Assembly: GCF_014306095.1 (NCBI RefSeq)
Contig: NZ_JACRWC010000103.1
Span: forward strand, 1-38,911
Source: Lentihominibacter faecis
GTDB lineage: Bacteria; Bacillota; Clostridia; Peptostreptococcales; Anaerovoracaceae
DNA length: 38,911 nt
Direction: 5' to 3'
Shown here piece after piece: positions 1 to 38,643 of the stretch. The stretch's first letter is position 1; each line of letters begins with the position of its first letter. A model generated the notes under the pieces. That model worked only from the letters and a program-made list of their open reading frames with translations, did not search any database and was not told the DNA's origin. Position numbers and translations under genes: made by a program.

Positions 1-789
1 GTATAAGAGACAGTACTCATACTTTTTACTGTATTTTGCCCACCGATGTTTTAATTCATCGCTCTCTTTAACATCTCGAAATGCTGCTTCATTTTCAGCA
101 ATAATCCACTGTGAACCTCTCTTTTCCACAGTACTTTCGAAAGCATTCTTTAAAATAGTTTTGTCCACCTGATACCATCTTAACTGGTATAAAATAAACA
201 CATCATAAAAATCTCTTGGACGAGTATTGGCAGTTCCTCTTGATAAAATTGTTTCAAGTTTTTCTGCAAGTACTGTTTCAAGATTATAAGCCATAATACT
301 TATCTCTTTATTGTCAAATAGACAACTAAATTTATATTCTATCTCCTTTGGTGTTATTTTATCACCTGTTGTTACATCAACTGTAATCGCTGTACAGATT
401 GGCGGGTATTCTCCAAAAAGATAAACTCTGATTCCAGGGTAGTCATCACCCTCTCTAATATCTTCTGTTCTATCCAAAATAAATTTAATATCGTCATCTA
501 TTTCTATGCTGCATATCTCCGTAAATATATCTTCAATAGAATCATGCGACAAATCAAACCCCTTAATTGTAGTATCCAAATCCATTGTTGTTCTTGTATC
601 AAGCCCAACAATAGCTGAAATAAGGAAGCCACCTTTTAAAATAAAATTGTTTTTATATCTTGAAACGGAGATACGTTCTAACAATCTTTCCAACATATAA
701 TTCTGCATTACGAGTTGAGCACTGATATGCTTTTCTTCCGCCTGTTTTTTTATAAATGCTTTTAACTGCATTGGATTCTTCGTTTTCAT
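1..789 (-). CDS. AbiEii-type nucleotidyltransferase toxin, type IV toxin-antitoxin (3' end beyond window)
   Basis: The frame is open from an ATG at 789 to base 1, giving 263 codons; the C-terminus lies outside the window. Seen: the nucleotidyltransferase signature KGG (residues 52-54) followed by MDLD (69-72), then a downstream AEKLETIL...RPRDFYD block typical of AbiEii/AbiGii proteins. Known of the family: a GTP-binding nucleotidyltransferase-like toxin that stops growth reversibly and can abort phage infection, neutralised without direct binding by AbiEi. The ATG overlaps the stop of the upstream antitoxin gene (ATGA), and its GGAGGTG ribosome binding site lies inside that gene, so translation is probably coupled. 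The AT-rich composition fits horizontal acquisition. The family call is firm; toxicity is inferred. Confidence 0.85.
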   Translation of the reverse strand, partial: MKTKNPMQLKAFIKKQAEEKHISAQLVMQNYMLERLLERISVSRYKNNFILKGGFLISAIVGLDTRTTMDLDTTIKGFDLSHDSIEDIFTEICSIEIDDDIKFILDRTEDIREGDDYPGIRVYLFGEYPPICTAITVDVTTGDKITPKEIEYKFSCLFDNKEISIMAYNLETVLAEKLETILSRGTANTRPRDFYDVFILYQLRWYQVDKTILKNAFESTVEKRGSQWIIAENEAAFRDVKESDELKHRWAKYSKKYEYCLLY

Positions 790-1379
790 AACAGCACCTC
801 CATATAGTTTCTGATTTTCTTTTCTACTTTAAGCAATTTAGCATACTCCATGAGCCTTCGTAAATTTCTGTTTTTATCCTTTGCATATCGTTTCATTGCA
901 TTATTCACAATTTCAATATCAAAGGTCTCATTTCCTCTTACAACATCACACAAACTTTTTTCCAAATCATAAACTTTTATTTTATGTCCTGCCGGAGATT
1001 CCATAGTTATAATTCCAAGCTGGTAAATTTCTTTTACTGCATATCTCTCAAGAATAGGAATATCCCAATTCTTTTTTATATGATATCCTCTTGGAAATGT
1101 CATATTAAATGATGCCGGTGTTCTATCAGAATATCCGTGCAAAAATAAAGCTGTTTCATGAGAATAAATTCCCTTTGAATAGCGATATTGAGCAATCAAC
1201 CATTCATCTTCCCATGCAGTAGGGAGCTGATAAAGACCTCTTGCAGTTTTAATCAATAGTTGCCGATTTACCATATCAGTTAATACTCTTCTCGGAATAC
1301 CATTAGCAGTAATTTCACTTGAAGTTACCATTCCATTATTTTTTTCAGCCATATTTAATACTAATTCAATATTGGTCAT
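786..1379 (-). CDS. AbiEi-type antitoxin / autoregulator, type IV toxin-antitoxin
   Basis: About 197 residues. Seen: an N-terminal winged-helix segment (about residues 1-60, with NGMVTSSEI and ARGLYQLP), the SHETALFLHGYSDRTP block typical of AbiEi, and a C-terminal domain ending YMEVLL. I chose the ATG at 1379 over a start at 1400 because GAGGAAG lies about 9 bases upstream of it. Known of the family: AbiEi antagonises the AbiEii toxin and represses its own promoter by binding inverted repeats. A long inverted repeat with a -10 box lies directly upstream (1402-1450). The stop codon overlaps the toxin start by four bases, the usual arrangement. Confidence 0.88.
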   Translation of the reverse strand: MTNIELVLNMAEKNNGMVTSSEITANGIPRRVLTDMVNRQLLIKTARGLYQLPTAWEDEWLIAQYRYSKGIYSHETALFLHGYSDRTPASFNMTFPRGYHIKKNWDIPILERYAVKEIYQLGIITMESPAGHKIKVYDLEKSLCDVVRGNETFDIEIVNNAMKRYAKDKNRNLRRLMEYAKLLKVEKKIRNYMEVLL

Positions 1380-1401
1380 TATTCTCACTTCCTCACCCAT
1401 T

Positions 1402-5500: not shown

Positions 5501-6422
5501 TGATGCAAATACTTGTCCGCTTATCTGTCACGAACAGAGTCACCAGCTTGCTGTCGCTCTTGGTCGTACGGGAATCCTTTTTGAACAGCTCCCCTTCGAT
5601 GCAGACGACACCACTCTCAGAATTGACCTGTCCGATGGATAAAAACGGACCGTACACAGCCGAGCCCATGATCACATTTCCCTTTACAGGCACATAGCTT
5701 CGCTTTCTGCGTTTGAATCCGCCCTGGCTGCCGCCAGAGCCCGAGCTGAAGCCGCCTCCGTTAGATCCTCCGGATGCCCCGGTTTCTTTTGCAAAGCCGC
5801 CTCCGCCGGCAGTGTTTCCCGCAGCTCCCGGCCGGTTTCCCTTCGTCTGTCTCTGCTTTGCAAATTCATCCATCTGTTCTTCCACCGCACGACGTTCCTT
5901 TTCTTCCACATGAAGTCCAGCCTGTTTATATACGTCCACCTGGTTCTTGAAAACAACCTTTGCATCCAGGTTCAGGTCGCGCTTCAAAAGCTTCTGAAAC
6001 TCTGCGGCGGCTTCCTTGTTGAGGATCTTTACCGAAAGTTCTCCCAGTGCAAAGATAGTCAGGACTCCGTCCTCAAGGCTGCACGCTTCCTTCTCGATGG
6101 TTTTCGTCACATGAGCGAATCTGCCGTTGACGATACTGATCATGTGTCCTATGTAAAAAGGCAGAGCTTCCTCGATCGTCTGCCTTAAATCACTGTAGGA
6201 AATCAGCAGAACAACGTCCTCAATGCCCGGCAGCTGTGCCACAAGACTTCTCTTGAACAGATCCAGATCTTCTACAGGCAGCACAAAATTAAGGTCCATT
6301 TCCAGTTCCAGCACCTTGCTTTCCTGCAGGATCACAGCCCGTTTCACTTCAGATTTCAATTCTTCTTTTGTGTGATTTCCCAGTTTCGAAAAATCAATGG
6401 AATTCTCCAGTATTTTTATCAT
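2592..6422 (-). CDS. polC: DNA polymerase III alpha subunit, PolC type, lacking the exonuclease domain
   Basis: 1276 residues, against about 1430-1460 for typical PolC. Domains seen: N-terminal domain (1-190), an unusual Gly/Ser-rich linker (about 196-236), OB-like domain (about 245-355), PHP domain (about 367-600), palm with SRGSVGSS (723-730), a zinc-ribbon-like Cys cluster (C750, C753, C775, C778), catalytic PDIDLNF (803-809), and a C-terminal clamp-binding motif AQISLFG. In usual PolC a DnaQ exonuclease of about 170 residues splits the PHP domain; here the sequence passes from YGCEGYLLEDKD (426-436) straight to the RPTNHV segment (449-454) and no DxETTG motif occurs anywhere. PHP ligands are present: H371, H373, D380, H405, E428, H453, C503, D577, H579. 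The start overlaps ispG by 29 bases. Polymerase identity is certain; loss of intrinsic DnaQ proofreading is read from sequence. Confidence 0.97.
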   Translation of the reverse strand: MIKILENSIDFSKLGNHTKEELKSEVKRAVILQESKVLELEMDLNFVLPVEDLDLFKRSLVAQLPGIEDVVLLISYSDLRQTIEEALPFYIGHMISIVNGRFAHVTKTIEKEACSLEDGVLTIFALGELSVKILNKEAAAEFQKLLKRDLNLDAKVVFKNQVDVYKQAGLHVEEKERRAVEEQMDEFAKQRQTKGNRPGAAGNTAGGGGFAKETGASGGSNGGGFSSGSGGSQGGFKRRKRSYVPVKGNVIMGSAVYGPFLSIGQVNSESGVVCIEGELFKKDSRTTKSDSKLVTLFVTDKRTSICIKAFVVNEKWDDIDHYLGAGDGVKIKGQAQWDRFDNCTVIMADSIEKAEKKERMDTYPEKRVELHAHTKMSAMDGLNDAKRMVKTAEKWGHRAVAITDHGVVQAFPEASHAGKDIKILYGCEGYLLEDKDLIAEDGTINYKGRPTNHVIVFAKNRDGLKNLYRLVSMSHLNYFYKKPRMPKSVLTKYREGLIIGSACEAGEVYQAVLHEESEAELKRLVEFYDYLEIQPLINNRFLIEGGHVKDEEALREINRKIIALGEQYGKPVVATCDAHYFDAEEALYRRIIMAGQGFKDVEGDEGLYFRTTDEMMEEFMYLGEEKAYEVVITNPNKIADEIESMMPVPDGKFPPKIEGAEEDLRKACEERAANMYGSPLPQEIRERLDKELNSIIDNGYAVMYRSAELLVKKSLSDGYLVGSRGSVGSSFAATMSGITEVNPLPPHYLCPDCKHLEWGDKELYDCGVDMPDKVCPECGTPYRKEGFTIPFETFLGFEANKEPDIDLNFAGEYQGTAQKYVEEIFGKENVYKAGTISAVKDRIAYGYVARYFEEREISVNKAEMDRLTDCCTGVKKTSGQHPGGVIIVPDGHEIYEFCPVQHPANDVKSDIITTHFDYHSIDKNLLKLDILGHDAPSMIRQLQDMTGLDPQDVPIRDDKVMSIFNGIEGLDIKDPEYRFVHGSYGIPEFGTKFVRQMLDDTKPEAFADLVRISGFSHGTDVWLGNAQELIVNGTATMKDAISTRDDIMNYLRLKGVPNKDAFTIMEKVRKGKGLTEEQENLMRENDVPEWYIESCKKIQYMFPRAHAVAYVMMSNRIAYYKVYHPVAFYAVYFTAKVAYFDEKVILKGKDAILDRMDEILRKGKDAAKKEEDEIPVLEVAYEMCARGYEFAPARLGISDPLRFLAHDGKVLLPFVAITGVGEGAAKQFAEEYARRPYETVEDIADRGKVNKSAIDELRQHGVLDGLPETAQISLFG

Positions 6423-7473
6423 ATTCTCCTGCCAGTTTTATAATCTCATCTGCAATCTTTTCTTCCGGTACAGTCTTTAAGATCTCACCACCGGAAAAAA
6501 TCACGCCTTTTCCCTTGCCGCATGCTACGCCGAGATCTGCGCCTCTTGCCTCTCCCGGTCCGTTGACGGCACAGCCCATAACAGCGATCTTGATACCGCA
6601 AACGCCTTTTTCCGTCACTTCATGGATCCTGCGTTCTATGCTTTCTGCGATCTTTTCCAGATCCACTTCTGTCCGGCCGCATGTTGGACAGGAAACGATT
6701 TCGATTGCATCCTTTCTGATGCCTAAAGCCGCCAGCAGTTCCTTTGCAAAGAGCACTTCTTCTACCGGATCCGCCGTCAGAGAAATACGCATGGTGTCTC
6801 CGATATCCTCCAGCAGCAAAGCACCTACGCCTGCCGCCGATTTTATCTTGCCCCGTGACGGCGTTCCTGCCTCAGTCACGCCGATGTGAAGCGGGTAGTC
6901 CGATCTGTCATTTACGATCTTATATGCTTCATAATTCATTTTGACGTCAGATGATTTCAGAGAAATCACGATATCATCAAAGTCATATTTTTCAAGAAGG
7001 GCAACATTTCTGAGAGCACTTTCTGCAAGGCCCTCTGCTGTGACCTTGCCGTACTTCTGCAGAATGTCTTTTTCCAGGGAGCCGGAATTGACTCCAACAC
7101 GAATAGGGATGCGGTATTCTTTTGCCAGATCCACCACTTCCTTTACCTTGTCTTGCGAGCCGATATTTCCCGGATTGATGCGGATCTTATCCATGCCGGC
7201 ACGGATCGCTTCCAGTGCCAGCCGGTGATCAAAGTGTATATCTGCTACAAGCGGCAGATCCGTCTGCTTTCGGATATCATACAGTGCTCTTGCTGCCTCC
7301 ATATCCGGCACCGCCATCCGCACGATCTGACAGCCTGCTTCCTCAAGACGCCGAATCTGCTCCATCGTTGCCTTGACGTCAGCCGTCGGCGTATTGGTCA
7401 TAGACTGTATAGAAACAGGAGCTCCGCCTCCGATTTTCACATTTCTGCACAGAACAGCTTTTTTTTCACTCAT
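6394..7473 (-). CDS. ispG: (E)-4-hydroxy-3-methylbut-2-enyl-diphosphate synthase
   Basis: 359 residues. It reductively opens methylerythritol cyclodiphosphate to HMBPP, the penultimate step of the MEP isoprenoid pathway, in the cytosol. Seen: N-terminal SIQSMTNTPT, the TIM-barrel body with RINPGNIG, and the [4Fe-4S] ligands C262 and C265 (SCPTC), C301 and E308 (GCAVNGPGE). GAGGTG precedes the ATG at a good distance. It is embedded between rseP and polC; its 3' end overlaps the start of polC by 29 bases, which suggests coupled translation. Together with dxr in the same operon it marks the MEP rather than the mevalonate route. Confidence 0.97.
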   Translation of the reverse strand: MSEKKAVLCRNVKIGGGAPVSIQSMTNTPTADVKATMEQIRRLEEAGCQIVRMAVPDMEAARALYDIRKQTDLPLVADIHFDHRLALEAIRAGMDKIRINPGNIGSQDKVKEVVDLAKEYRIPIRVGVNSGSLEKDILQKYGKVTAEGLAESALRNVALLEKYDFDDIVISLKSSDVKMNYEAYKIVNDRSDYPLHIGVTEAGTPSRGKIKSAAGVGALLLEDIGDTMRISLTADPVEEVLFAKELLAALGIRKDAIEIVSCPTCGRTEVDLEKIAESIERRIHEVTEKGVCGIKIAVMGCAVNGPGEARGADLGVACGKGKGVIFSGGEILKTVPEEKIADEIIKLAGEYDKNTGEFH

Positions 7474-7506
7474 ATGATTTCACCTCATCTTAGAAATTCA
7501 GATTAT

Positions 7507-8520
7507 TTAAGAAAAAATCGGTACGACAAATCGCACGATATCGTTCCATGTCACATAGACCATCAGCAATAACAGCAGCATGATCCCTACAAAATGGACC
7601 TTTCCTTCCATCTCATCGGTCATCCGTTTGCCTGTGAACTTACGGATCACCAGGAACAGGAGTCTGCCTCCGTCCAGTGCCGGAAGTGGAAGCAGGTTCA
7701 TGATCGCCAGGTTCAGACTCAGCAGCGCCGACAGATAGATCACATATATGACCCCGGCCTTCGCCGAATCATTTACGGCATAAACGATCCCCACCGGCCC
7801 GGAAAGCTCTTTCACAGAAACCTCACCTGTCACCAGTTTTTTAAGGATATCGTACATCATAACGGTCATTTTCCCGGTGTTCTTCACACCGTTGACCGTT
7901 CCTTCTGCCAGACTGTGTTTGAAAACAGGTGAAACGCCCACCTTGTTTCGCTGTGCCTGCTCATCGTATTCCACGCGGGACTGTATCGTCATTTTTTTGC
8001 CATCACGATCCAGTTCAAAGGAGACCGTATCGTTTTTTGTTTGACCGACCACAGTCAGAAGATCGTTCCATTCATCGATCTTCTTTCCGTCTATCCCCAG
8101 GATCTCATCCCCTTTCTGAAGCCCTGCTTCATAGGCCGGTGATCCATCTATAACCTTGTTGATCGTAGTCGTAGGCTGTCCTGCCCAGGTTGCAATGACA
8201 ACAAGAAGCAGCATAGCGGTCAGCAGGTTCATAAAAGGTCCTGCCGCAAGTACACATGCTCTCTGCCAGGCAGGCTTATTATTAAAAGCCCGTTCATCTT
8301 CCGAGTCTTCATCTTCCCCTTCCATGGCACAGAAACCGCCGATAGGAAAAATTCGCAGGGAATACTGTGTTTCCCCTTTCTGCTTTTTGAAAAAAGCCGG
8401 CCCCATGCCTATCGCAAATTCGTTGACCTTGACGCCGCAGGCTTTTGCAGCGATAAAATGTCCGAATTCATGGACGAATATCAACAGGCAAAATATAAGG
8501 ATGGCGTAAATTATCGTCAT
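7507..8520 (-). CDS. rseP: RIP metalloprotease RseP (site-2 protease family)
   Basis: 337 residues, a zinc intramembrane protease that cleaves membrane-spanning regulators such as anti-sigma factors or remnant signal peptides. Seen: HEFGH (residues 17-21) within the first membrane helix, a PDZ domain (about 115-180, SPAYEAGLQKGDEIL), and LDGGR (282-286), which carries the third zinc ligand, followed by C-terminal helices. A GGAGG site lies six bases before the ATG. It sits between dxr and ispG, the usual Firmicutes order. The ECF sigma/anti-sigma pair at 33708-35064 is a conceivable client, but nothing in the sequence shows this. Confidence 0.96.
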   Translation of the reverse strand: MTIIYAILIFCLLIFVHEFGHFIAAKACGVKVNEFAIGMGPAFFKKQKGETQYSLRIFPIGGFCAMEGEDEDSEDERAFNNKPAWQRACVLAAGPFMNLLTAMLLLVVIATWAGQPTTTINKVIDGSPAYEAGLQKGDEILGIDGKKIDEWNDLLTVVGQTKNDTVSFELDRDGKKMTIQSRVEYDEQAQRNKVGVSPVFKHSLAEGTVNGVKNTGKMTVMMYDILKKLVTGEVSVKELSGPVGIVYAVNDSAKAGVIYVIYLSALLSLNLAIMNLLPLPALDGGRLLFLVIRKFTGKRMTDEMEGKVHFVGIMLLLLLMVYVTWNDIVRFVVPIFS

Positions 8521-8532
8521 ATGGTTCCTCCG

Positions 8533-9693
8533 TTATATGGTCTTCTCAACCAGTTTTCTCACGTCTTCTCTTCCCCTCATATCCTCTTCCAGTATTGTTT
8601 CAAGATCCAGGTTTCTCTTCGTCTGATGGGCCTCCATCATCTGTATCAGGAAATTCTGGATGTCGATAAAACGGATCTTTCCGTGGAGGAACAGATCCAC
8701 TAAAACTTCATTGGCACCGTTGAGCACCACGGGACAGCTTCCGCCCTCTCTGCATGCTTCGTAAGCCAGATCTATCGTTTTGAATACACTGCGGTCCGCC
8801 GGATAAAAAGACATGCCTTCTTTAAGGGAGAATAGATCCAGCGGCTGCGTCACATCTGAAAGATCCATCCGCTCAGGATAAGAAAAGGCATAGGCGATCG
8901 GGATCCGCATATCCGGGTTTCCCATCTGTCCGATAACCGAGGAGTCCATGTATTCCACTGCGGAATGAAGGATACTCTGCGGATGAACCACCACCTGGAT
9001 CTTTTCCAGCGGCACATCGAACAGCCATCTGGCCTCGATGACTTCCAGACCTTTATTCATCATGGTAGCAGAATCTATGGTGATCTTGCTCCCCATAGAC
9101 CAGTTAGGATGGTTTAATGCCTGCTCCAGGCTCACCTGCTCCAGCTGCTCAAGACTGTATCCTCTAAACGGCCCTCCGGATGCTGTCAGCAGGATCCTGC
9201 GTATCTCGTTATCCTGATTTCCCTGCAGACTCTGGAAAATAGCACTGTGCTCACTGTCTACCGGCAGCATGGCAACACCGTGCTTTTTCACAGCATCCAT
9301 AACAAGCTGCCCTCCGGCAACCAGAGTTTCTTTGTTTGCAAAGGCAATGTCCTTGCCGCTTTCGATCGCGGCCATAGTTGGCTCAAGCCCTTTCATACCC
9401 ATGAGCGAATTAAGCACCATATCGCAGCTTTCCATGGACGCAATAGTCTTTAGCCCTTCGGCGCCCCAGAAAACCTCCAGATCCTTATACTTATCAGCAA
9501 GCTCCTTTGCATCCGTCTCGTCCCTTACCGCGACAGCCTCCGGCGAAAACTCCTCGATCTGTCTGCAAAGCAAAGGAAGGCTCTTCGCACAGGAAAGAGC
9601 CGTCACCTTAAATTTATCTTGATTGTGTGCGATCACATCCAGCGCCTGCGTTCCGATAGAACCGGTGCTTCCGAGAATCGAAATCTTTTTCAT
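8533..9693 (-). CDS. dxr: 1-deoxy-D-xylulose 5-phosphate reductoisomerase
   Basis: About 386 residues. It converts DXP to methylerythritol 4-phosphate with NADPH, the committing MEP-pathway step. Seen: N-terminal NADPH loop ILGSTGSIGTQ, the substrate segment LPVDSEHSAIFQ, NHPNWSMGSKITIDSATMMN, and a C-terminal helical domain. Three starts are close together (TTG 9702, ATG 9699, ATG 9693); I prefer 9693 because AGAGG lies nine bases upstream and the protein then begins MKKISILGS, as in homologues. Twelve bases separate its end from rseP. Confidence 0.96.
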   Translation of the reverse strand: MKKISILGSTGSIGTQALDVIAHNQDKFKVTALSCAKSLPLLCRQIEEFSPEAVAVRDETDAKELADKYKDLEVFWGAEGLKTIASMESCDMVLNSLMGMKGLEPTMAAIESGKDIAFANKETLVAGGQLVMDAVKKHGVAMLPVDSEHSAIFQSLQGNQDNEIRRILLTASGGPFRGYSLEQLEQVSLEQALNHPNWSMGSKITIDSATMMNKGLEVIEARWLFDVPLEKIQVVVHPQSILHSAVEYMDSSVIGQMGNPDMRIPIAYAFSYPERMDLSDVTQPLDLFSLKEGMSFYPADRSVFKTIDLAYEACREGGSCPVVLNGANEVLVDLFLHGKIRFIDIQNFLIQMMEAHQTKRNLDLETILEEDMRGREDVRKLVEKTI

Positions 9694-30109: not shown

Positions 30110-32695
30110 TTACTTCTTCGGGATCTTGATATTGTTTCTGTGGCGGATCTGGTTCTTTCGCGCATACTCTTTCAGAAAAGAACTGATCTCCAGATTCGTC
30201 CGCTCGATCTCTCCTTTAAGCTCCGATGCCGAAAGCCTGAAAGCACCATTTCCCAAAGCAATTATCTGCTCCTGTCTATCCGATGTGGCCACTCTCACAC
30301 GGTATTTTCCGTTCATTTCATAAGTCAGCCGCTCTATATAAGTATCGGCAGTCTCGCCTTCTTTCGTAAACACCACATCGACAGACCCGTGCTTTTCCTG
30401 ACGTCGCTCGCCACCCTTTATTTTATAAGCATCGAATACGATGATAACCTTGCATCTTCGATAACCCTGGTAATTGGAAAGGATCTCTATCAAAGCAGTC
30501 CGCGCCGCGTCCATACTGGTCTTCGCCAGCGATTTCAGCTCTTCCCATGCAAAAATAATATTATACCCGTCCACCACCAGATATTCCTTCTGGATCTCCG
30601 CCGACTTGGTTTTTTGATATCCCTGCTCCCCTTCTATGACACGCGGTCCGATGGATCCCTGCGTTCGTTTCTGCAAAGGTGCCTCCGGCATTCCTGCAAA
30701 ATCTTCTACCCCTATGGATCTGCTGTTTTCCTCAGGCCGTCCCATCGTTTTGTTTTGATCGGGAAGCACGCTCCGGTCCAGTATGATATGTACGTGATCA
30801 TCCACCTGATCCCATGGCACAAGGTATCCTGCACCGTGACTGCAGAAAACAGAATCCGCCGTGTTTTCTGTATCTTCATCCACACGGTATCCTGTCTCTT
30901 CCATAACTTTCTCCGCATCGTGGCACGGCTCATATCCTGCCACACTGCAGCTGAGGTGTCCATAGCCTCTCGTATAGGAGTTCACTTCGGCCATATAACC
31001 TTTCATTTCAGATACAGGTGCTTTTCCTGCGATCAGGGATAGATCACCTCTCGTCTGAGGCAATTCAAAAGAGCCTCCCATTCTCTGGATATCCGCCATT
31101 GCTCTGCCCGTCATATCCTGTGGTACTTCCAGCTCAAAATCGTACCAGGGTTCCAGCAAAATGCTCTGCGTCTTTCTAAGACCCTGCCGTACTGCCCTGT
31201 AAGTTGCCTGCCGGAAGTCTCCGCCCTCCGTATGTTTCAAATGAGCACGCCCTGCCAGCAGTGTGATCTTCACATCGGTTAGAGGAGAACCTGTAAGAAC
31301 TCCCGGGAAATCTCTTTCGGCCAGATGTGTCAGGATCAATCGCTGCCAGTTGCGATCCAGCAAATCTTCTCTGCATGCGGTATCCAGCACGACACCGCTT
31401 CCGGGATCACCCGGTTCCAGCAGCAGATGAACCTCTGCATAATGACGGAGCGGTTCGAAATGTCCTGCACCGATCACCGGTTTGGCAATGGTTTCACGAT
31501 ACGCCACCTTGCCTTCTCCAAATTCCAGTTCCAAATCGAACCTCTGCCGGATCATCTCTTTTAAAATCTCCAGCTGCACTTCTCCCATGAGCTGGATCTG
31601 GATCTCTTCTGTCTGGCTGTTCCATGCTATGTGAAGCTGTGGATCCTCTTCTTCCAGCTGTTTTAGCTGCTGCAGCGTGCGATGTACATCTGCTCCGTCC
31701 GGCAGCAGTACACCGTAACTCATGGCAGGCTCCAGCACGAAACGATTCTCACTTTCTTCCACGCCAAGGCCTTGCCCTGCGTGGGTGTGTTCCAGTCCTG
31801 CCACAGCACAGACTGTGCCGGCTTCCGCTTTCTGCACCGTTTGATATTTTCCTCCGGAATAGATCCTTATCTGGTTCACTTTTTCCCCAGATGCTCCGGG
31901 AGCATCTGACAGATCCAAAGTTTCTTTTACAGAAAGTGTTCCACCGGTGATTTTCATATGCGTCAGCCTCATCCCCTGCGGATCACGGGTGATCTTATAG
32001 ATCCGTACTCCGAACTGCTGCGGATAAGAAGGCTCCTCTGTAAACTGCACGATCCCATCCAGGAATCCTTCCACCCCGCTCATACGTAAAGCCGATCCAA
32101 AATAGCAAGGGAATATCTTTCTGTTAGAAATACTGTTTCTTATACTTGGCACAGAAATATGACCTGTTTCCAGATATTCTTCCAGCAAACCCTCCTCGCA
32201 CATAGCAGCCTGCTCTTCTTCCGGATCCTCGAAATCAAGGCAGCCCGCGCTTAGTGAACTTTGCAGTTCCTCTAAGATCTGCGCACGGTCAGCTCCTTCC
32301 AGATCCATCTTATTGATAAAAAGAAATACAGGTATCTCGTATTTCTGCAAAAGTTTCCACAGTGTCACGGTATGCCCCTGTACACCTTCCCTTCCGCTGA
32401 TGACCAGCACGGCGTAGTCCAGCACTTGTAGCGTTCTCTCCATTTCCGCAGAAAAATCCACATGCCCCGGGGTGTCAAGCAGCATCAGCTTCGTATCTTT
32501 GTACGTCATTTCTGCCTGCTTGGAAAAAATGGTGATCCCTCGATCACGCTCCTGTATATCGGTATCTAAAAATGCATTTTTATGATCCACCCGTCCCAGG
32601 TTCCGGATCGCTCCCGTCTGATAGAGCATCGCTTCGGACAGTGTGGTCTTGCCCGCATCTACGTGGGCTAAAATTCCAATTACGATATTTTTCAT
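30110..32695 (-). CDS. Tet(M)-like ribosomal-protection GTPase fused to a YacP/Rae1-type NYN nuclease domain
   Basis: 861 residues; classical Tet(M) proteins have about 640. GTPase part: AHVDAGKTTL (10-19), RGIT (52-55), DTPGH (74-78), NKMD (128-131), SAL (201-203), then EF-G-like domains II-V (about 225-635, including MGEVQLEILKE and YTRGYGHLSC). A linker (about 640-700) leads to an NYN/PIN-like domain (705-845): VVDGYNII (D709), VFDAYK (D755), ETADTYIE (D784), TSDRQEQ (D806), the acidic set expected of this nuclease fold. Known: ribosomal-protection GTPases act at the ribosomal A site; B. subtilis Rae1 (YacP) cleaves mRNA in the A site. A ribosome-rescue or antibiotic-response role is inferred; tetracycline resistance should not be assumed. 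AGAGG lies 10 bases before the ATG within a small palindrome (32699-32708). Confidence 0.93.
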   Translation of the reverse strand: MKNIVIGILAHVDAGKTTLSEAMLYQTGAIRNLGRVDHKNAFLDTDIQERDRGITIFSKQAEMTYKDTKLMLLDTPGHVDFSAEMERTLQVLDYAVLVISGREGVQGHTVTLWKLLQKYEIPVFLFINKMDLEGADRAQILEELQSSLSAGCLDFEDPEEEQAAMCEEGLLEEYLETGHISVPSIRNSISNRKIFPCYFGSALRMSGVEGFLDGIVQFTEEPSYPQQFGVRIYKITRDPQGMRLTHMKITGGTLSVKETLDLSDAPGASGEKVNQIRIYSGGKYQTVQKAEAGTVCAVAGLEHTHAGQGLGVEESENRFVLEPAMSYGVLLPDGADVHRTLQQLKQLEEEDPQLHIAWNSQTEEIQIQLMGEVQLEILKEMIRQRFDLELEFGEGKVAYRETIAKPVIGAGHFEPLRHYAEVHLLLEPGDPGSGVVLDTACREDLLDRNWQRLILTHLAERDFPGVLTGSPLTDVKITLLAGRAHLKHTEGGDFRQATYRAVRQGLRKTQSILLEPWYDFELEVPQDMTGRAMADIQRMGGSFELPQTRGDLSLIAGKAPVSEMKGYMAEVNSYTRGYGHLSCSVAGYEPCHDAEKVMEETGYRVDEDTENTADSVFCSHGAGYLVPWDQVDDHVHIILDRSVLPDQNKTMGRPEENSRSIGVEDFAGMPEAPLQKRTQGSIGPRVIEGEQGYQKTKSAEIQKEYLVVDGYNIIFAWEELKSLAKTSMDAARTALIEILSNYQGYRRCKVIIVFDAYKIKGGERRQEKHGSVDVVFTKEGETADTYIERLTYEMNGKYRVRVATSDRQEQIIALGNGAFRLSASELKGEIERTNLEISSFLKEYARKNQIRHRNNIKIPKK

Positions 32696-32760
32696 TATAG
32701 GTTAACCTCTCTTATCAAGATTGTACATGATTTCTGCACGAAAACATCCCAGGCATAAGA

Positions 32761-32800
32761 AAAACTCTGAAACACCTTGCGGCATCCCAGAGTTTTCTCT
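32761..32800 (-). terminator. Rho-independent terminator between the 49-residue gene and the GTPase-NYN gene
   Basis: AAAACTCTG (32761-32769) pairs with CAGAGTTTT (32788-32796) around an 18-base loop; on the minus strand the stem is followed by TTTTTCTT. It follows the small membrane-protein gene by about 45 bases and precedes the GTPase gene by about 65, so it could also attenuate readthrough into the latter. Confidence 0.75.
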
Positions 32801-32842
32801 CGCTTTTGTACTGTTTCTTCTCATTATTTTTCAATAGGTCGT

Positions 32843-32992
32843 TCACATACTCCAAAAAAATCCTATAAACATGCCGAAGCAAACGAGCACCACCATGACT
32901 GCAAGGAACAAGGTCGCATGCAGATAACGTTCTGAATATTCCATATGGTTCTCATACTCTTCTTTAGGTTCTGTTTTCTTTTTTCTGGACAT
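32843..32992 (-). CDS. Small membrane protein, 49 residues, unknown function
   Basis: Not recognised. The ATG at 32992 has AAGGAGT eight bases upstream, an excellent site. Seen: a highly charged, Lys/Glu-rich N-terminus (MSRKKKTEPKEEYENHMEYS), then one hydrophobic helix (about 26-48) ending GFFWSM. It is likely a single-span protein with the N-terminus in the cytoplasm. It lies upstream of, and in the same direction as, the GTPase-NYN gene, with a terminator between. It may be an independent small protein or, less likely, a translated leader controlling the downstream gene. Confidence 0.7.
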   Translation of the reverse strand: MSRKKKTEPKEEYENHMEYSERYLHATLFLAVMVVLVCFGMFIGFFWSM

Positions 32993-33203
32993 TTTAAAAC
33001 ACTCCTTTTTTAGTACAAACGTTTGAATCCGTTCTCTATTTTAGGTCACCCCTAAATGATCGGATAGGTTTGAAGTGTGGAATATACCCTGTTACCGTAA
33101 TGTACGCTTTTTTTCGACAAAACTAGTGTTTTTCCGTTCAAAAAAACACCTCACACAACCACCCTTACTATGTCTATTGGTGAAAAAAAGGAGGTTTTCT
33201 AAC

Positions 33204-33656
33204 ATGAAGAAAACAATACTCGCCACACTGATCATTTCGATCTTTTTCGCTTTCACCTGTACGGCGTCGGCCACCACATCAGGAGGACAGGCTGCTGCAA
33301 AATCCACTCCGGCATCCACTGACACGGTGAGCCTGTCGAATGATACCGTGATGCCAGCATCCGGCTCTGGAATTACAATGGTATTTAAACGTACTTCATC
33401 TAGTCAAGCTAAAGCACAAGCTCTAGCAAATCGCGCAGGGGCATCTTCTATTACATCCACTATCACTTTACAGAAAAAATCCGGCGGTAGTTATAAAAAA
33501 GTTACATCGGCATCAAAAACAGTCCATGATGATCAGATCAACCATATCAAATATTTCTCTATAGCCTCTTCTGGAACTTATAGAATCAAGGTTACGATCT
33601 CTTACAAAGAAGATGGCGTTACAAGAGGAAACACATATTACAAATCTATGAGTTAA
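33204..33656 (+). CDS. Secreted small protein, unknown function
   Basis: 150 residues. Seen: a signal peptide (MKKTILATLIISIFFAFTCT, cleavage probably after ASA near residue 23), a Ser/Thr/Ala-rich stretch, then a beta-rich domain (about 52-150) with repeated Ser/Lys/Thr strands and SSGTYRIKVTISYK near the end. It resembles small secreted clostridial proteins of unknown function, but I cannot name the family with certainty. AAGGAGG lies nine bases before the ATG. It is followed at once by a strong terminator and converges on the anti-sigma gene. The preceding 210 bases hold no clear promoter. Confidence 0.8.
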   Translation: MKKTILATLIISIFFAFTCTASATTSGGQAAAKSTPASTDTVSLSNDTVMPASGSGITMVFKRTSSSQAKAQALANRAGASSITSTITLQKKSGGSYKKVTSASKTVHDDQINHIKYFSIASSGTYRIKVTISYKEDGVTRGNTYYKSMS

Positions 33657-37101: not shown

Positions 37102-37998
37102 TTATATCCACTCGCCATTATTGGCAGACCATTTTGGGGTAAATTCTTTGCCCCCGACCGCCGCTGTAAACGGTTTTGTCAGGAAAACTTTTATTGTTTT
37201 CAGCACGGTACTGTAATCATCGGTTTTGATGCCAATTTTACGGACAAACGCTTTCCATTTCTTCTGCATTGCTTCATCATTATCAAACCTCATAACCTGT
37301 TCAAACTGTTCAATCGTAAAGCTATGTCCACGGTTTTCAAATGTCTTTTTCAGTGCTTCTGTCAGCGTTGCACCGTCAAAATCAAATTTATTAGCAAGAT
37401 AATAAATATCGTAATAGTCTTTCATGCGGCTAGAAAATTCCATCAGGCTAAGGATTGCGTCAATTTTCTCAGCAACAGTCGTTTCAATGGAATAAGTATT
37501 AACTGTGGGTGCAACAAAATCATCAAGCTGAGTGGGAATTTTTCTTTTTTCCTGCTTCGGCACAATAACATCGCCAACACCAAAATCAATGCCAAACGGT
37601 GTGCGTGTGTTTTTTATACGAGCAACTATTGATACACCTATACCAGCATATTTCTTCGCAACGGCAATAGGTGCAACATCCTTTATCTCAAAGGCAACAA
37701 AATCATTGCCAGTATGAACTGCAATAATTTCCTCAAGTATACCCCTTAACTGTTCCGGTGTATTGGGTATTTTCCGAAGCAAAAAATCTACATCAACCGT
37801 TACTCGGCTATCAAAGTCAGTAAGGGAATAGAGGAACAAGCCGCCTTTCAGCACGAGGTTTTCAGCATACTTAGACTTTTCCAAACGGCGCAAAAATTCC
37901 TCTTGGCAAAAGAGTTGCAAGCAGAGCTGATAGCTTCTGCCACTTTCAGCAGCTTTGTTTTTGAGCCGTGCCAGCACGGACGCAGCTATATCAGCCAT
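37102..37998 (-). CDS. AbiEii-type nucleotidyltransferase toxin, type IV toxin-antitoxin
   Basis: 298 residues, complete. Seen: LVLKGGLFLYSL (KGG at 51-53) and VTVDVDFLL (D69, D71), the nucleotidyltransferase core; then VAEKIDAILSLMEFSSRMKD and YYDIYYLA, the later family motifs. The start overlaps the antitoxin gene by eight bases, with GGAGGTG seven bases upstream, inside that gene. This is the second AbiE module of the window; it differs clearly in sequence from the left one and is not a recent duplicate. The AT-rich surroundings and the adjacent mod and transposase remnants suggest a defence or mobile region. Confidence 0.9.
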   Translation of the reverse strand: MADIAASVLARLKNKAAESGRSYQLCLQLFCQEEFLRRLEKSKYAENLVLKGGLFLYSLTDFDSRVTVDVDFLLRKIPNTPEQLRGILEEIIAVHTGNDFVAFEIKDVAPIAVAKKYAGIGVSIVARIKNTRTPFGIDFGVGDVIVPKQEKRKIPTQLDDFVAPTVNTYSIETTVAEKIDAILSLMEFSSRMKDYYDIYYLANKFDFDGATLTEALKKTFENRGHSFTIEQFEQVMRFDNDEAMQKKWKAFVRKIGIKTDDYSTVLKTIKVFLTKPFTAAVGGKEFTPKWSANNGEWI

Positions 37999-38596
37999 TA
38001 AGCAGCACCTCCATTACATTCATAACCTTTGTATAAAGCTTCATTTCCTTTGCGTATTTAGACAAATTTGCAAGGTTCTTTTTTTCATCAGCAGCATAGG
38101 CATTGACAGCCTTATTAAAAATTTCGTTGTCAAGTTTTGTGCGGTACTTAAAACAATCGCATATTGTTCGTTCACGATCATATACAGGCAATATTACACC
38201 GTTAAAATTGCTTATGGACTTACCTATATCTAAAAATTCCTTTTGAATATAGTAAGCTTTCATCGGAAATTCTTCAATGTTCTTTACTGCACGGGACGCT
38301 GTTCTCGGCACAGCAATCGACCATTCACGGGGAGAAAAATCACTATATCCGTGGTGAAACAAAGCGGACTCCACACAAATAATTCCCTGCGGAAGAAGCT
38401 CCCGTATGAGCTGTTCTTCTGTAATACTTTTACTTTGGGGGAGCTGATAAAATCCTCTGCGAATTCTTTCAATGACTCCTTCTTTACAAAAAGCCGCTAC
38501 CTCGTATTTATTTATCCCGTTAGCGGCAAAATCTGAAGTTTTTGCAATGCCGCCGTTATTTTCAATTACCGTTTTTAAAATTTCTTTTTTACTCAA
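37991..38596 (-). CDS. AbiEi-type antitoxin / autoregulator, type IV toxin-antitoxin
   Basis: About 201 residues. Seen: N-terminal winged helix (SKKEILKTVIENNGGIAKTS, then IRRGFYQLPQ), the ESALFHHGYSDFSPREW block shared with the left AbiEi, and the end VMNVMEVLLNG. I chose the TTG at 38596 because family members begin near KKEI and because the predicted promoter (38644-38672) would start transcription near 38637, after a possible TTG at 38641. GGAAAG lies about 11 bases upstream. Confidence 0.87.
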   Translation of the reverse strand: MSKKEILKTVIENNGGIAKTSDFAANGINKYEVAAFCKEGVIERIRRGFYQLPQSKSITEEQLIRELLPQGIICVESALFHHGYSDFSPREWSIAVPRTASRAVKNIEEFPMKAYYIQKEFLDIGKSISNFNGVILPVYDRERTICDCFKYRTKLDNEIFNKAVNAYAADEKKNLANLSKYAKEMKLYTKVMNVMEVLLNG

Positions 38597-38643
38597 GCAG
38601 ACACCAACTTTCCACACGCAAAAAATAAATAATGTACGCAATT

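Follow-up and report, generated by a model that had tools for sequence, protein, structure and literature searches.

A translational GTPase fused to a Rae1-type nuclease domain, with separate rae1 nearly always missing from the sampled genomes which carry the fusion

Background

What is a protein in which an EF-G-like translational GTPase runs, in a single reading frame, into a nuclease domain of the Rae1/YacP type, and what becomes of the separate rae1 gene in the bacteria which carry it? The question is raised by a gene located at 30110..32695, on the minus strand of a 38,911-nucleotide stretch of Lentihominibacter faecis DNA, analysed as a whole and referred to below as the window. The initial annotation of this sequence had proposed the fusion of a Tet(M)-like ribosomal-protection GTPase to a Rae1-type NYN nuclease, possibly coupling the clearing of a stalled A site to mRNA cutting.

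Rae1 of B. subtilis is described as a translation-dependent mRNA endonuclease, S1025 being one known Rae1 substrate, and its route to paused ribosomes is given as a proposal only; EF-G and Tet-type factors act at the A site via the tip of their domain IV (PMC4342817 among the sources). From ten clostridial species, PMC4342817 (Atkinson 2015) describes Tet-type GTPases joined to an NYN domain like that of YacP; it reports no experiment on them and suggests a tetracycline-protection reading for the fusion. The initial remark that no experimental description was known may still hold, but the architecture itself has been in print since 2015. Background statements are drawn from parts of PMC4342817, PMC10632193, PMC11780869, PMC8161019, PMC4750697, PMC12320835, PMC1780047, PMC10100781 and PMC8266666.

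Results

Gene and domain organization

The gene encodes 861 amino acids from an ATG start in an uninterrupted frame, and Pfam domains are recognized in both halves, bearing out the proposed joining of a GTPase to a Rae1-type NYN domain. PF00009 and PF05991 occur together in the best 120 of 7974 scored matches and, in a second search, in the best 120 of 7989; moreover, the NYN domain lies in frame with the GTPase in 41 of 148 sampled genomes. A chance or assembly fusion is thereby ruled out.

All features listed here lie on the minus strand. The G domain (GTP_EFTU, residues 4-219, 32039..32686, 176 bits in Pfam) lacks none of the expected motifs, P-loop AHVDAGKT, RGIT, DTPGH and NKMD all being seen, as previously claimed for this protein; among 44 fused homologues, P-loop, RGIT, DTPGH and NKxD are found in 42, 42, 43 and 44, respectively. 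It is followed by Pfam domains II (EF-G_D2, residues 231-310, 31766..32005), III (EFG_III, residues 322-393, 31517..31732), IV (EFG_IV, residues 395-509, 31169..31513) and V (EFG_C, residues 513-593, 30917..31159). Domains I-V and the motifs identify an EF-G-like translational GTPase; domain II alone falls slightly below its Pfam cut-off (24.8 bits against 27), and its fold aligned to EF-G. In the Agathobacter rectalis fusion (L004, about 5980-8781) the G domain contains an insert of about 25 residues shortly before DTPGH.

After domain V come residues 594-640 (30776..30916), SVFCSHGAGYLVPW, a C-terminal tail which is conserved in this GTPase family, with the consensus S(V/I)FCxxGxGxxVxW. Unfused relatives stop at about the equivalent of residue 640, just past this tail, while most fused proteins retain it and then continue, so that the join corresponds to the former C terminus. 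Of the 44 fused proteins 42 match a loose tail pattern, and of 18 unfused relatives 17 match a second pattern, written differently; the SVFC/SIFC tail is seen at the C termini of L107-L123, and in 0 of 7 Tet and EF-G references.

The linker proper covers residues 641-704 (30584..30775) and is predicted to be disordered at 645-700. The description of a 60-residue linker, as first given, is apt for this disordered segment (pLDDT <50) but not for residues 594-640, the tail common with unfused relatives, predicted as ordered (block pLDDT 74-90). Among fused relatives the linker varies in length and sequence; an ELxxIFxxTYG-like motif is found by a loose pattern in 31 of 44, the window's protein being one of the 13 in which it was not found. 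The predicted model of the whole fusion has a mean pLDDT of 77 and a pTM of 0.56 and, the linker being disordered, is uninformative on the relative placement of the domains.

The surroundings of the gene are chromosomal in character, neighbours in the window including DNA polymerase III alpha, isoprenoid, ribosome recycling factor, histidine and folate genes. At 32696-33300, before the gene start, a search for promoters and terminators of consensus type gave no match; one terminator-like match inside the gene is at chance level, and an Rfam search of the whole window gave no match. A small ORF of about 49 codons, apparently a short membrane peptide as judged by eye, lies upstream of the fusion gene at about 32845-32991 (minus strand). 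An AbiEi/AbiEii type IV toxin-antitoxin pair is found at one window end (37102-38641, minus strand), and a second AbiEi-like regulator near the opposite one (786-1400, minus strand).

The nuclease half

The NYN_YacP domain (residues 706-852, 30140..30580, minus strand) scores 168.5 bits against a Pfam cut-off of 24.6, which assigns it to the Rae1/YacP type, and the NYN part alone matches the solved YacP structures 5mq8/5mq9 (E 1.4e-30). D709, D755, D784 and D806 are present as originally reported, and align with D7, D53, D81 and D104 of B. subtilis Rae1. Loss of these residues in most homologues, named in the initial annotation as a refutation of its proposal, was looked for and not seen: all four catalytic-site Asp are kept in every NYN row compared, 44 of 44 from fusions and 52 of 52 from separate genes. 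The latter comprise 50 genes (from 49 of the 95 genomes with only a separate gene, described below, and from G097), B. subtilis, and one gene entered twice (L007 and L125). In five of six pairs of related fused genes the NYN dN/dS is 0.03-0.10, with dS >1 in three of these five computable pairs, and the sixth pair is saturated. By sequence, both halves are intact and under purifying selection.

Other positions conserved in Rae1 are relaxed in the fusion: the residue of B. subtilis R118 is kept in 51 of 52 separate against 23 of 44 fused rows, that of L91 in 51 of 52 against 6 of 44, and that of K58 in 45 of 52 against 20 of 44. This suggests that substrate or docking may have changed, and would fit a change in docking or codon choice. 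The same relaxation could be taken to mean that rRNA or tRNA is the target of the NYN domain, the fusion being a ribosome-maturation or rRNA-damage factor; PMC4342817, in the parts consulted, raises rRNA and tRNA maturation for this NYN domain, and rae1 ordinarily adjoins the rRNA enzyme genes mrnC and rlmB. We consider this very improbable, given the mRNA endonuclease activity described for B. subtilis Rae1 and the unchanged Asp set.

The GTPase half

The name "Tet(M)-like" proved to be a loose label. Over residues 1-600, the protein is 27.7% identical to Tet(M), 28.7% to Tet(O), 29.7% to Tet(W) and 32.3% to TetB(P), compared with 27.5% to a partial C. difficile EF-G. Among NCBIfam models the window's protein scores best with tet_protect (NF012153), at 409 bits, where the curated cut-off is 775; in the identical scan the positive controls score 880 bits for Tet(M) and 959 for TetB(P), the Agathobacter fusion scores 389, and two unfused relatives 380 and 440. 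In a tree of 66 GTPase rows, the family of the window's GTPase and the Tet proteins form separate clades, each supported at 100/99; Tet(M), Tet(O), Tet(W), TetB(P) and an OtrA-like protein make up the Tet clade, and the window lies outside. The bootstrap of this tree is not fully settled, some rows are long, and F_L106 and U_L120 were left out.

The two groups also differ at the tip of domain IV. Loop III (residues 485-494, 31214..31243, minus strand) reads HLKHTEGGDF, its Tet(M) counterpart being YSPVSTPADF, in which Pro-509 is described as part of the tetracycline site. At the equivalent position the window has Lys; of the 44 fused rows, 38 carry Lys, 3 Arg and 2 Glu, and one is gapped, while of the 18 unfused rows 14 carry Lys and the remaining four each a different residue. 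Pro is thus found in none of the 43 fused rows having a residue there, nor in any of the 18 unfused ones. Since Tet(M) altered at positions 508-510 is reported to be still active, Pro is, by that report, not strictly required in Tet(M), and loop letters alone do not exclude resistance.

These data bear on the reading of the fusion as a tetracycline ribosomal-protection protein to which an RNase has been joined. Its EF-G-like domains follow the same order as in Tet(M), tet_protect is its best model, some homologues are named "TetM/TetW/TetO/TetS family" by NCBI, and the activity of the loop III variants makes the missing Pro less decisive. Still, we judge this reading quite unlikely: score, clade and loop all set the family apart, the window copy sits among chromosomal housekeeping genes, and the region before it and the window as a whole gave the negative promoter, terminator and Rfam results reported above. 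The identity as a ribosomal-protection protein was not upheld by the low score, the separate clade and the different domain IV tip; by sequence, the GTPase of the fusion is not a Tet(M)-type resistance protein.

Relatives are also found in other settings. The window's protein is 41-51% identical to the four unfused relatives measured, and a Paenibacillus cellulosilyticus replicon encodes a relative 63% identical to L107. On a Ligilactobacillus salivarius plasmid (L005, 4529-6920) an unfused GTPase of the family adjoins, in divergent orientation, a plasmid copy of rpsN.

Fused and separate rae1 in sampled genomes

The main sample consisted of 148 genomes from the group labelled as the order of G001, a genome which holds a 64%-identical relative. 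An NYN_YacP domain is present in 136 of them: 95 have a separate gene only, 40 the fusion only, and one, G097, has both; 12 have neither. Fused and separate rae1 are thus mutually exclusive, nearly always, in the sampled genomes (Fisher p 3e-24, ignoring relatedness), and G097 may be a mixed assembly. Fused and separate states were called by hand from frame length and confirmed, in this sample, by GTPase hits in the same frame as NYN, found in all 41 fused genomes, among them G123, whose 635-aa protein lacks its middle part, and G139, where the gene meets a contig edge. In one of the 95 genomes with a separate gene, G046, rae1 is split in two pieces.

Two further samples were searched. In the phylum-group sample (149 genomes, G001 belonging to both this and the main sample) 85 genomes have a match; 11 of the matching frames, that of G001 included, measure 877-914 aa and were counted as fusions solely on length. 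A weak, sub-cut-off match in a 714-aa frame and one match in a 308-aa frame were left unclassified. None of the 149 genomes has two NYN matches. In the closer-group sample of 60 genomes, in which fused state was likewise read from frame length and completeness was not filtered for, 29 have a match, the frame measuring 841-976 aa in 26 of them and less in 3, one of the 29 also having a second, short fragment, and 31 have none. These 31, together with the 12 genomes lacking both forms in the main sample, make the function look dispensable.

The genomic position of separate rae1 is constant: in 31 of 31 loci read, from 30 genomes, it lies between rlmB and sigH. These loci (L006-L033, L035, L124 of G097, and L125, a longer stretch of the genome of L007; L034 is a fusion) represent the best-scoring 29 of the 148-genome sample, plus G097 and L125. 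The fusion does not share this location; no match to CysS, MrnC, RlmB or SigH was found in the ORFs of 41 fused loci, with flanks of at most 6 kb, cut at contig ends. Conversely, rlmB junctions were read in 30 of the 41 fused genomes, and rae1 was not seen at 29 of them, the exception being G097. At 24 of the 30, a sigH-like gene comes next after rlmB, the gap measuring -35 to 313 nt and the sigH match being weak in one case (28% identity); five have no sigH hit, among them L151, where only 623 nt are available downstream. A recent swap is seemingly illustrated by two sister genomes of the RpoB tree (100/99): G078 carries the fusion and an empty slot, G068 a separate rae1, and the latter is not among the genomes with a GTPase match.

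Since separate rae1 is nearly always missing from the sampled genomes which carry the fusion, the fusion is probably the Rae1 of these bacteria. The same loss strengthens the Rae1 half of the coupling idea put forward in the initial annotation.

Origin and spread

In the NYN tree the 44 fused domains form one side of a branch against the 52 separate rows, with support of 100/99 and in all 200 bootstrap trees. The fused GTPases likewise form one clade, save for the unfused L. salivarius protein, which falls inside it at a position left open by the tree. When the fused state is mapped on an RpoB tree of 120 genomes (19 of 139 rows were dropped, and no RpoB match was found in 9 of the 148 genomes, including three with the fusion), 10 changes are counted, at least 9 of which are forced by well-supported branches. 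Independent contrasts are few and stay short of the 0.05 level: leaving out genomes with neither form, separate rae1 changes in the direction opposite to the fusion in 5 of 6 pairs and shows no difference in 1 (p 0.06); including such genomes, 4-5 of 9 pairs are opposite and the rest show no difference (median p 0.06).

Each half being essentially a single clade, yet with at least 9 changes of state, the fusion seems to travel as one gene and to displace rae1. The simplest account of these trees would be essentially one fusion event, after which the gene was passed on horizontally in its entirety and the resident rae1 was lost; alternatively, an ancient fusion may have been lost repeatedly.

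The GTPase also occurs in unfused form. It accompanies a separate rae1 in 16 of the 148 genomes (G046, with its split rae1, included), and G001 has an additional unfused paralogue besides the fusion; in 79 of the 95 genomes with separate rae1 no GTPase was found at E 1e-90, with at most 8 candidates scored per genome. Both figures would agree with halves which act separately, fused only for co-expression or general localisation at the ribosome and with no GTP-driven hand-over, and so would a long disordered linker, variable in length and sequence. This alternative seems unlikely to us, because the fusion persists over a deep clade with the L. salivarius protein as the single unfused row inside, displaces rae1, and often conserves the linker motif mentioned above.

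Discussion

On the whole, the initial observation is confirmed, and its interpretation is supported in part. The reading that we favour, with some confidence, is that the fusion is Rae1, a ribosome-dependent mRNA endonuclease, tethered by a flexible linker of about 60 residues to an EF-G/Tet-like GTPase and acting on paused ribosomes. Sequence evidence carries the argument as far as the organism's probable Rae1; beyond that point we infer that the protein binds ribosomes and acts as a nuclease, in which order the steps occur, and that the two activities are coupled. Against this reading stand the Rae1 positions relaxed in the fusion, the small number of independent contrasts, the presence of both genes in G097 and the genomes with neither.

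The proposed coupling of action at the A site to mRNA cutting is a reasonable one, but simultaneous action there is unlikely, as domain IV and Rae1 would compete. The A site is the proposed place of Rae1 as well as of domain IV in a bound EF-G-type factor, so that a sequential mechanism would be needed. The GTPase would bind paused ribosomes at the factor site, its domain IV reaching into the A site, and GTP hydrolysis would release it from the ribosome; the tethered NYN domain would then enter the vacated A site, of the same or of a neighbouring ribosome, and cut the mRNA there.

A broader picture is proposed more tentatively, and we rate it somewhat below an even chance: the fusion may represent a mobile, GTP-powered ribosome surveillance nuclease, whose GTPase delivers Rae1 to paused ribosomes, and which, from what was essentially a single origin, spread as one gene among Clostridia by horizontal transfer and took the place of the resident rae1 repeatedly, bringing mRNA cleavage in these bacteria under GTPase control. 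The joining of Rae1 to a ribosome-type GTPase, in replacement of the separate gene, suggests a testable mechanism for the recruitment of Rae1. There is also a practical side: some homologues are named as tetracycline-resistance proteins, and the scanned members of their family fail the cut-off of tet_protect itself, so that name-based counts of resistance genes can be misleading.

Among known systems, B. subtilis Rae1/YacP has the NYN_YacP domain and all four Asp in common with the fusion, with 48% identity over 128 residues; it is, however, a separate protein of 170 aa, encoded in the cysS-mrnC-rlmB-rae1-sigH cluster, whereas the window's domain is fused and located elsewhere. Tet(M), Tet(O), Tet(W) and TetB(P) feature the same EF-G-like domains and GTPase motifs, but the fusion is only 28-32% identical to them, falls below their family cut-off and in a separate clade, and has a different domain IV tip, a different C-terminal tail and an extra nuclease. 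The unfused proteins annotated as "translation factor GTPase family protein", such as that of Ligilactobacillus salivarius (L005), belong to the same GTPase family and have the SVFC/SIFC tail; unlike the fusion, they stop at the tail, with neither linker nor NYN domain.

The Tet-NYN proteins described from Clostridiales in PMC4342817, like the window's protein, combine a GTPase of the EF-G/Tet type with an NYN domain resembling YacP. The window's fusion has the Tet-NYN architecture of Atkinson 2015, though its GTPase lies outside the resistance clade. The parts of that paper at hand suggest that genes of the Tet subfamily in general were transferred horizontally, and contain no report of horizontal spread of the fused gene, of the loss of separate rae1, or of the separation of the GTPase from resistance proteins. 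The displacement of rae1 is not claimed here as unpublished, the comparison being with PMC4342817; measured against the parts of that work consulted, the architecture is not new, while rae1 displacement and the separation from resistance proteins go beyond it.
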